Positions 30,631 through 49,616 of a DNA stretch of 64,000 nucleotides are shown here, one piece after another. The position numbers and the translations under genes are program-made. Every line of letters starts with the position of its first letter. Position 1 is the first letter of the stretch. A model generated the notes under the pieces. The model had not been told where the DNA came from. It was given only the letters and a program-made list of their open reading frames with translations, and did no database searches. The stretch is from Solobacterium moorei (lineage in GTDB: Bacteria; Bacillota_I; Bacilli_A; Erysipelotrichales; Erysipelotrichaceae), in contig NZ_AP028934.1 in assembly GCF_036323475.1 (NCBI RefSeq), forward strand, positions 2,418,001-2,482,000, in the 5' to 3' direction.

Positions 30631-30942
30631 CTACAACTTGATTTCGATATCAACTCCAGAAGGCAAATCCAATCTACTTAATGCATCGATTGTTTCTGCG
30701 GATGGGCCGATAATTTCGATCAATCTCTTGTGTGTACGGATTTCGAATTGCTCACGAGCATCCTTGTACTTGTGGACAGCGCGAAGTACTGTAATCACTT
30801 CACGCTCAGTAGGCAGCGGAACAGGTCCAACGATTTTCTTTGCGCCGTGGCTTGTAGCTGTCTTAACGATCTTTTCGCTAGCAGCGTCTAAGCTTCTGTT
30901 CTCGTAAGCCTTCAGACGAATTCTTACTGAGTTCTTTGCCAT
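30631..30942 (-). CDS. rpsJ: 30S ribosomal protein S10
   Basis: The 103-residue protein starts [19 protein letters not shown] and has the [15 protein letters not shown] and [12 protein letters not shown] segments of S10. It lies in the small-subunit head and also takes part in antitermination as NusE. ATG 30942 follows an AGGAGG site; an upstream in-frame extension runs into the structured leader and is rejected. It is the first gene of the 28-gene operon. Confidence 0.97.
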
Positions 30943-30966
30943 GAATTTTTCCTCCTTATATTCACT

Positions 30967-30983
30967 CCGCCATCTTGTGGCGG
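30967..30983 (-). promoter_or_regulatory. Small hairpin just upstream of rpsJ ribosome site
   Basis: CCGCCA at 30967-30972 pairs with TGGCGG at 30978-30983 around a 5-base loop. On the mRNA it ends about ten bases before the AGGAGG of rpsJ, so its folding could affect initiation. Confidence 0.4.
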
Positions 30984-30991
30984 ATCGCTCC

Positions 30992-31057
30992 GTGGAAGTT
31001 CCCTGGTTATCACACCATGCTGTGACAACGCACATCGGCGTGCCAGCAATCTTCCAC
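30992..31057 (-). promoter_or_regulatory. Structured leader RNA of the S10 operon
   Basis: The transcribed strand can form a branched fold. An outer stem joins GUGGAAG (from 31051-31057) with CUUCCAC (30992-30998). Inside it CUGG (31043-31046) pairs with CCAG (31003-31006). Within that are two hairpins: GCAC...GUGC (31030-31043) and UCACA...UGUGA (31010-31025). This is a cloverleaf-like leader between promoter and rpsJ, suitable for ribosomal-protein feedback, perhaps by L4. The pairing is seen; the role is inferred. Confidence 0.5.
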
Positions 31058-31077
31058 ATCTACACGAGTGCTTCAAT

Positions 31078-31106
31078 ATAGTAACACTACTAAAACCCTT
31101 TTGCAA
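31078..31106 (-). promoter_or_regulatory. Promoter of the S10-spc-alpha operon
   Basis: On the minus strand TTGCAA (31101-31106) and TACTAT (31078-31083) are separated by exactly 17 bases. The predicted start near 31071 gives a leader of about 130 bases before rpsJ. No other clear promoter or terminator was seen until the hairpin at 17251. Confidence 0.7.
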
Positions 31107-42248: not shown

Positions 42249-42466
42249 TTGGCACTGATAAGACCTCCCAGAGTAAGGCATATATCTTTCCTGTCATCTA
42301 CCCGCCTCAATTGAAATTCGTGACCATCGGGTCAACAGTTTGTCTAGTTCTTCCTTCCGATTCCACCTCACGATGGACACCCTTGAATTCGGCTCAACCT
42401 TAGGGACTACATCCCTTGGTTAGAGGTACCTTTCAACCCCCAAGATGTATGCCATGTCTAGCACAC
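42249..42466 (-). mobile_element. Class C group II intron relic, copy 1
   Basis: Read on the minus strand from 42466, the relic starts GTGTGCTAGACATGG and contains the domain I landmarks AAGGGTGTCCATCGTGAGG, TGGAATC-GAAGGAAG and a GAGGC segment, in the order known for class C introns such as the Oceanobacillus intron. It stops near 42249 without domain V and has no reverse transcriptase frame, so it is a 5' fragment. It begins four bases after the T-run of the agaF terminator; class C introns insert behind terminators. Its twin in the opposite orientation is at 49400-49616. Confidence 0.65.
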
Positions 42467-49399: not shown

Positions 49400-49616
49400 G
49401 TGTGTCAGACATGGCATATATCTTGGAGGTTGAAAGGTACCTCTAACCAAGGGATGTAGTCCCTAAGGTTTAGCCGAATTCAAGGGTGTCCATCGTGAGG
49501 TGGAATCTGAAGGAAGAACTAGGCAAACTGCTGGCCCGAGGGTCACAAATCTCAATTGAGGCAGGTAGATGGTAGGAAAGATGTATGTCTTACTCTGGGG
49601 GGTCTTATCAGTGCCG
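49400..49616 (+). mobile_element. Class C group II intron relic, copy 2
   Basis: The relic starts GTGTGTCAGACATGG, the 5' splice-site pattern of group II introns, and contains AAGGGTGTCCATCGTGAGG, then TGGAATCTGAAGGAAG, GCAAACTGCTGGCCCGAGG and TCAATTGAGGC, the domain I landmarks of class C introns. It is nearly identical to the copy at 42249-42466 but in the opposite orientation. It ends after about 217 bases, without domain V or a reverse transcriptase. Confidence 0.65.

Follow-up and report, generated by a model that had tools for sequence, protein, structure and literature searches.

A predicted S10 leader RNA that appears to share nucleotides with a putative WhiA operator upstream of rpsJ in Solobacterium moorei and its relatives

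What lies between the promoter and the first gene of the S10 operon in Solobacterium moorei? We looked at this in a window of 64,000 nucleotides (contig NZ_AP028934.1), for which an initial annotation, made from the letters alone, had proposed a cloverleaf-like leader RNA involved in ribosomal-protein feedback. We compared the stretch with loci from the order Erysipelotrichales, from the rest of the class and from a sample of the phylum. Our answer is that the roughly 130 bp between the promoter and rpsJ probably serve twice, as an RNA leader and as a DNA operator that share nucleotides, both of them regulatory.

The S10 operon and its leader are on the minus strand, and rpsJ (30942–30634) is the first gene, followed by rplC, rplD, rplW and rplB. 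The promoter with 17-bp spacing is present as it had been described (TTGCAA-17-TACTAT, sigma-70-like), though it is weak, with 8 of 12 consensus bases as counted by eye; it is absent from the output of our promoter scan, which has a threshold of 9 of 12. From the predicted transcription start at about 31071 to the ATG at 30942 the leader is about 129 nt long. The element spans about 31071–30941 (minus strand), directly upstream of rpsJ. The interval 30992–31106 therefore does not cover the full element, which reaches on to the start codon. In relatives, a -10 hexamer with 0–1 mismatch is found just upstream of P1 in 125 of 141 cases, compared with 56 of 279 control windows further up, and the commonest gap between it and the 8-nt P1 arm is 19 nt. 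For this reason the transcript is predicted to start with the leader, and the promoter was rightly placed upstream of the fold.

Further up, a hairpin (AAAAAGGCCU-GAUAAU-AGGUCUUUUU, 31289–31264, minus strand) lies 3' of the upstream HAD-type hydrolase gene (31986–31309). By eye it looks like the terminator of that gene, and if it is one, it would insulate the S10 promoter. It is unlisted under the rules of our terminator scan.

Table 1. Features of the rpsJ upstream region in window coordinates, in the direction of transcription.
Feature	Position	Strand	Basis
-35-like hexamer TTGCAA	31101..31106	-	direct reading; 17-bp spacer to -10
-10-like hexamer TACTAT	31078..31083	-	direct reading; predicted transcription start ~31071
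P0 5' arm UCGU, outermost stem	31064..31067	-	4 pairs, 91.4% of cells paired, two-sided change 4/4
P1 5' arm UGUGGAAG; inner 7 bp are the outer stem of the initial annotation	31051..31058	-	7 pairs, 96.3% paired, two-sided change in 5
Internal-loop strand RUUG, here AUUG	31047..31050	-	GUUG 122, AUUG 18, GUUA 2 of 142 order leaders
P2 5' arm CUGG	31043..31046	-	4 pairs, 98.5% paired; strand-swap z -7.6
WhiA-operator-like core GGCACGCC, one mismatch to GAYACRCY, overlaps P2 and P3	31037..31044	-	core definition from PMC11701221
P3 5' arm CACGCC	31037..31042	-	strand-swap z -6.1, 0/2000, n=30; column alignment weak (58.6% paired)
Auxiliary motif GTTGT, 8 nt after the ACRC of the core; also apical-loop CGUUGUC	31025..31029	-	motif from PMC11701221
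P3 3' arm GGUGUG	31011..31016	-	fold comparison and strand-swap test
P2 3' arm CCAG	31003..31006	-	covariation alignment
Internal-loop strand GKAA, here GGAA	30999..31002	-	GGAA 106, GUAA 34, AGAA 2 of 142
P1 3' arm CUUCCACG	30991..30998	-	covariation alignment
P0 3' arm GCGA, inside conserved GGAGCGA	30985..30988	-	covariation alignment
H4 hairpin UCCGCC/GGCGGA, without U-run 3'	30966..30984	-	6 pairs, two-sided change 6/6, 78.2% paired
P5 5' arm GUGAAU; P5 loop holds the Shine-Dalgarno	30960..30965	-	strand-swap z -5.0, 0/2000, n=35
Shine-Dalgarno AAGGAGG	30951..30957	-	direct reading
P5 3' arm AUUCAU, including first two start-codon bases	30941..30946	-	fold and duplex comparison
rpsJ (uS10), first gene	30634..30942	-	NCBIfam equivalogs

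The leader is structured, as had been claimed. Its minimum-energy fold is -48.8 kcal/mol (z = -3.60), with 1 of 200 shuffles equally good, and its stems covary in 97 sequences. The cloverleaf was right in part. An outer 7-bp stem (GUGGAAG/CUUCCAC), an inner stem (CUGG/CCAG) and two hairpins are what the minimum-energy fold has, but comparison favours one apical stem, P3. In the window sequence the two are about 1 kcal/mol apart, at -49.8 kcal/mol for the fold with P3 and -48.8 kcal/mol for the fold first drawn. The 7-bp stem stands as part of P1, but it is not the outermost, as an extra 4-bp stem, P0 (UCGU/GCGA), encloses P1. The further hairpin before the ribosome site is where it had been seen and is H4 in Table 1. 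Comparison of sequences supports an architecture of nested P0, P1 and P2 with P3 as the one apical stem.

We found no leader match in the window at Rfam gathering thresholds. At permissive thresholds RF03136 (S10-Clostridia) is the best match of the region and covers the full length of the model (1–81 of 81) with 21.7 bits against a cut-off of 35.1 (E 0.016–0.040), so that the Rfam search which had been proposed gave a full-length, sub-threshold hit. Stricter filters miss the leader, and in the leader search no other r-protein leader family was matched at E up to 5. Because 21.7 bits is below the gathering score, we file the leader as a diverged relative of RF03136, outside Rfam's own membership rule.

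We then used a covariance model, R1, made from 71 order leaders only, thinned at 86% identity (alignment A1), which scores 114.9 bits on the window. Elsewhere in the class R1 recovers 30 of 30 loci found with RF03136 (weakest E 0.0013). Since 24 of these are over the RF03136 cut-off, homology between our leader and RF03136 is reached through intermediates that Rfam itself would accept. Within the order, rpsJ was detected in 180 of 196 genomes and R1 in 179 of 196, one copy each. The sole genome with rpsJ and no R1 match (G138) has a contig that begins 10 nt before the gene, and in G153 and G158 the R1 match and the rpsJ match are on different contigs, among the matches listed. In the 295-genome phylum sample RF03136 matches 139 genomes at E 0.1, with 24 over the cut-off and none of these in the order, and R1 matches 164 genomes at E 0.01. 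The position is also that of a 5' UTR, as the 142 order leaders that could be parsed were all cut from just upstream of rpsJ. The Rfam cut-off therefore misses a leader that R1 detects in all but one of the 180 sampled order genomes with rpsJ. The leader is a diverged Erysipelotrichales form of the Firmicutes S10 leader, a kind of RNA already described. In the sections covered here, PMC7247131 (Eckert and Weinberg 2020) sees no fundamental difference between its S10 leader motif and the already established Firmicutes S10 leader, which it credits to Yao et al. 2007, and adds many new Clostridia examples.

Other Rfam matches over their cut-offs were two to the group II intron family RF02001 in the window, in opposite orientation (42278–42377, minus strand, 67.8 bits; 49489–49588, plus strand, 65.8 bits), and one to the L10 leader RF00557 at 138–267 of locus L264 (45.9 bits against a cut-off of 44), about 1.2 kb upstream of rpsJ in an f15 genome.

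For covariation we used an alignment (A2) of 97 realigned sequences out of 98 sources, with L158 left out as it was missed at E 0.001. In this alignment 86.8% of cells are paired and 23 of 25 pairs have two-sided change; because it was fitted to the model's structure, these figures lean towards that structure. None of 500 shuffles attains any of five covariation measures, and slid versions have no more than 50.9% of their cells paired. RNAalifold recovered P0, P1 and P2 from the same alignment, and neither P3 nor H4. In fixed columns P3 shows up poorly (58.6% paired), since its 3' arm shifts in position.

We therefore also give a strand-swap test, in which each 5' arm is paired with its own 3' arm and with that of another leader. 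The order provided 144 loci with upstream sequence, including the window copy (L001); L143 was excluded for too little upstream sequence, and 142 were parsed, as the contigs of L010 and L039 end. With order leaders thinned at 80% identity, P1 (z -6.5), P2 (z -7.6, n=35) and P3 (z -6.1, n=30) each had 0 of 2000 permutations as good, while P0 was weak (z -2.2, n=34, 21 of 2000). The 29 class leaders used (of 30; L159 was unparsed) gave z -8.2 for P1, -4.7 for P2, -5.3 for P3 (n=22) and -3.5 for P0. The permutation and shuffle tests all ignore relatedness among the sequences. Across the 97 sequences P0, P1, P2 and H4 covary, which is the opposite of the result that had been named as speaking against the leader.

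The internal loop RUUG/GKAA is nearly invariant among the 142 order leaders. L089 and L101 are the sole leaders with GUUA and also the sole leaders with AGAA, a double A change hinting that a purine-purine pair may have been exchanged as a unit.

The apical part of the leader has a second likeness, to a DNA site. Its consensus in order leaders, GRCACRC-N8-GTTGT, is highly conserved. According to the parts of PMC11701221 covered here, WhiA of Mycoplasma gallisepticum acts as a repressor of the rpsJ operon by way of two motifs, the core GAYACRCY and, downstream of it, GTTGT; GACAC is common to the WhiA sites of Streptomyces (PMC3781837, likewise in part). The operator-like site in the window is GGCACGCCGATGTGCGTTGTC (31044–31024, minus strand), and its core differs from GAYACRCY at position 2, where it has G and not A. 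The fit to GAYACRCY among the 142 order leaders is exact in 24, with one mismatch in 107 and two in 11. Both motifs are present in 121 of the 142, and in every one of these core and auxiliary motif are 8 nt apart. Between P2 and CGTTG there are always 16 nt (120 of 120), while on its 3' side this hairpin has anything from 16 to 48 nt. The window core is at about +28 from the predicted start at 31071, and of the 125 leaders that have a good -10, 104 have a core beginning at +25 to +29 of the predicted start. PMC11701221, in the same parts, puts the WhiA site 25–30 nt downstream of the transcription start in most mollicutes except acholeplasmas, and 22 nt downstream in M. gallisepticum.

In GTDB genome contigs the core plus auxiliary pattern has 62 matches, of which 60 are 60–80 nt before rpsJ and 2 are off contig ends, with none away from the rpsJ position. 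The names attached to them are Erysipelotrichaceae, Erysipelothrix, Traorella, Solobacterium, Anaeroplasmataceae, Acholeplasmatales and similar, or only Firmicutes/Mollicutes. A slightly different pattern occurs once each in 70 of 196 order genomes, and its reversed control nowhere. From these motifs, the apical segment appears to be a putative bipartite WhiA operator.

The genome of the window has whiA (G000:C1:64450-65358, E 6.1e-83, with WhiA_N, LAGLIDADG_WhiA and HTH_WhiA domains), as do 191 of 196 order genomes and 292 of 295 phylum-sample genomes. With the gene nearly universal, losses of protein and site can hardly be compared. Among the genomes with no whiA match, G096 (100% complete) and G444 keep the leader and the spaced site, G412 has neither site nor leader, G180 (= L118) lacks GTTGT, and G041, G062 and G078 are also without an rpsJ match. 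We gave up whiA loss against site loss as a test, as there were too few whiA-less genomes and the cases were mixed.

The two layers can be seen apart from each other. With a loosened core, the spaced pair is found upstream of rpsJ in 13 of the 14 f4 loci, and also in one locus each of f16, f17 and f18, and in these loci neither R1 (at E 0.1) nor RF03136 (at E 1) gives a match; L261 has one partial R1 match (15.2 bits, E 0.25). The f4 cores are mostly AACACRC, with exact GAYACRCY in 3 of 14. Conversely, 20 leaders of g4, g8, g11 and g37 are without GTTG and have TGTGT or something shorter in the place of GTTGT, and L031 has a leader with CGTGGAC and an incomplete operator. In the class, the operator is incomplete in 8 of 29 leaders, 7 of them (f5) without the core and one (L162) with the core and no GTTG. 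Outside the order, both layers are together in five f10 loci, picked via R1 matches, which have the complete RNA around GATACAC-N8-GTTGT; in one example CUGAUAC/GUAUCAG encloses GATACACT-N8-GTTGT, with AUUG opposite GUAA. Two more f10 loci, L272 and L273, gave no R1 match. From the small size of the f10 genomes we would guess that they are relatives of Mycoplasmoides. Operator-only and leader-only loci fit two separable layers better than one.

Some of these groups have features of their own. Genomes of g4, g8, g11 and g37 (e.g. L087, L097, L104, L118) nearly all have whiA, the exception being G180 = L118; in this group either the site changed together with its protein or the function of GTTGT was lost. 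The f5 genus g76 (L148, L158, L160, L164, L169, L171, L175) has small genomes that kept the leader RNA and in which the WhiA core is gone, and its WhiA is a weaker match to the family (E about 1e-32 to 1e-38) than the WhiA of the window's order. Most f4 loci (L248–L263) have, by eye, a second conserved stretch close to GCATGTRTATTTTGTGTGC just before the WhiA-like site, which could be a small stem or the site of another protein.

Could one layer account for everything? If there were only an RNA, GRCACRC-N8-CGUUGUC would be the part of the S10 leader that contacts protein or makes tertiary contacts, and the likeness to WhiA sites would be a coincidence. Several observations go with this: the swap test backs the apical stem P3, the RNA is kept in the 7 f5 leaders without the core and in the 20 order leaders without GUUG, the window core is one base off GAYACRCY, and G096 and G444 keep the site without a detected whiA. 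We nevertheless consider it unlikely, as the operon, both motifs and the distance from the start all agree with the WhiA work, the spacing stays at 8 although the hairpin varies in length on its 3' side, and the spaced motif stands before rpsJ in f4, f16, f17 and f18 loci with no detected leader RNA. The converse, that the conserved stretch is a WhiA operator plus promoter region and the RNA fold is incidental, is extremely improbable to us. The operator does coincide with some of the most conserved letters, but there are compensatory changes in P0, P1, P2 and H4, P1 and H4 are outside the WhiA motifs, and detection is reciprocal with a curated RNA family, RF03136.

Two further readings keep the RNA and change what it does. 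An E. coli-type leader, in which L4 binding causes attenuation and translational repression, would suit an operon that includes rplD, and in E. coli the S10 operon is known to be regulated by uL4 (PMC10931766, in the parts covered). We think such a leader highly improbable here: we found no U-run terminator hairpin in the leader, fold and sequence match RF03136, the sole r-protein leader family with a match at E up to 5, and according to the same parts of PMC10931766 an L4 site of the E. coli type lacks wide conservation even within the gammaproteobacteria. This different RNA could nonetheless have L4 as its ligand, which is compatible with the explanation that we prefer. The other reading is an alternating switch between P3 (CACGCC/GGUGUG) and the second hairpin of the initial annotation (GUUGUCACA/UGUGAUAAC). 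The small energy difference between the folds in the window speaks for it, as does the joint presence of GUUG and GAYAAC in 29 of 142 order leaders, but the partner strands separate, with GUUG alone in 92, GAYAAC alone in 20 and neither in 1. As the two strands are not retained as a pair, we rejected a conserved apical switch, and we consider a switch very unlikely.

We return to the reading with two layers and to how they might work. At the 3' end of the leader, the P5 duplex reaches -4 kcal/mol or lower in 75 of 142 order leaders, and 67 fall short. Its arms change together in relatives (GUGUAUU/AAUACAU, GUGUAAU/AUUACAU and UGGAAU/AUUCUA). Between 29500 and 32500 there were 0 terminator-like sites under the rules of our scan. 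With P5 around the ribosome site and no terminator found, control of translation start would be favoured.

The RNA layer would then consist of P0, P1 and P2 around the conserved 4x4 loop RUUG/GKAA, the apical P3 and H4; in this genome, as in part of the order, it would end in P5, with the ribosome site in its loop. An operon protein in excess would bind the domain of P1, loop and P2/P3 and lower the translation of rpsJ, and this in turn may lower the rest of the operon; attenuation has no U-run terminator to back it. In the DNA layer, by analogy with M. gallisepticum, WhiA would bind GRCACRC-8 bp-GTTGT at about +28 and repress initiation, and ATP would loosen its hold on the GTTGT part.

Our tentative guess for the ligand of the leader is uS10, and uL4 would be a more doubtful one. 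We looked at two possible sources of evidence. We tried rRNA mimicry, with the RUUG/GKAA loop as a copy of 16S helix 39, which would have pointed to uS10, and rejected it. For helix 39 the suspected likeness was to the E. coli and B. subtilis sequence. In the organism's own 16S/23S loci, R1 with filters off had a best E of 0.2 outside the rRNA gene and of at least 3.5 inside, and a scan of its own rRNA for the loop with flanking stems found 0, 0 and 1 sites (exact, relaxed and loosest), with null means of 0.04, 0.24 and 0.2. With no rRNA-like site in its own 16S/23S, nothing there points to the ligand. As for gene order, rplC is next after rpsJ in 116 of 116 loci with enough sequence, from a sample of 123 loci in which 5 were too short, 2 were without an S10 match, and the window locus, and perhaps other genomes too, was counted twice. 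Since rpsJ and rplC are not split in these loci, operon break-up gives no discrimination between ligands. It is also conceivable, if very improbable, that WhiA itself, a DNA-binding protein whose domains resemble homing endonucleases, binds the folded apical P2/P3 as RNA in addition to the operator DNA, so that an ATP-sensing regulator and not an r-protein is the ligand. Binding to both DNA and RNA would explain why the operator coincides so exactly with the RNA's tip, both in Erysipelotrichales and in the small-genome f10.

If both layers are real, the same roughly 25 bp are under an energy-sensing repressor and within a leader RNA, in the largest r-protein operon, in Erysipelotrichales and many mollicute relatives. 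Because the nucleotides are shared, base changes that test one layer (e.g. reporter variants of the core motif) also alter the other. There are two lines of work on the stretch before rpsJ, the RNA survey and the WhiA study, each silent on the other in the main texts as far as these were covered. In the main text of PMC11701221 the words leader, hairpin, secondary structure, RNA structure, untranslated and riboswitch are absent. WhiA and operator are absent from the covered text of PMC7247131, and its covered sections give no ligand evidence for the S10 leader. In the literature searched, some of it covered in part, we found no report of an overlap between the S10 leader and a WhiA operator. 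It is this overlap that looks new.

The E. coli S10 leader, controlled by L4, belongs to the same operon and has the feedback role that is proposed here, but a leader of that type would carry an intrinsic terminator; none was found here, and the leader matches RF03136. The initial annotation was thus correct to suspect a fold distinct from the E. coli one. The rpsJ motif RLC-47-1 of Peptostreptococcaceae is likewise a candidate leader before rpsJ, compared here by its description in part of PMC11109978. The closest RNA is RF03136. It too lies before rpsJ and has a stem with GAG-GUUGC opposite GGU/GG(K)AA, a conserved CGGAGCGA 3' of the stem and a second hairpin before the ribosome site, but its structure is without the P0, the P3 with GUUGUC loop and the start-codon hairpin that we found in order leaders. 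Three strong members of RF03136 carry 19–23 apical nt, GUUGUC among them, that the model has only as an insertion, and the WhiA-like core overlaps modelled columns; the Rfam consensus suggests that Clostridia may be without the operator. The closest DNA site is the WhiA operator of M. gallisepticum, which shares with our locus the core with a downstream GTTGT, the place 3' of the start site, the rpsJ operon and the presence of whiA; it has a GAYACRCY core, whereas here the core is GGCACGCC and is set inside a covarying leader RNA.
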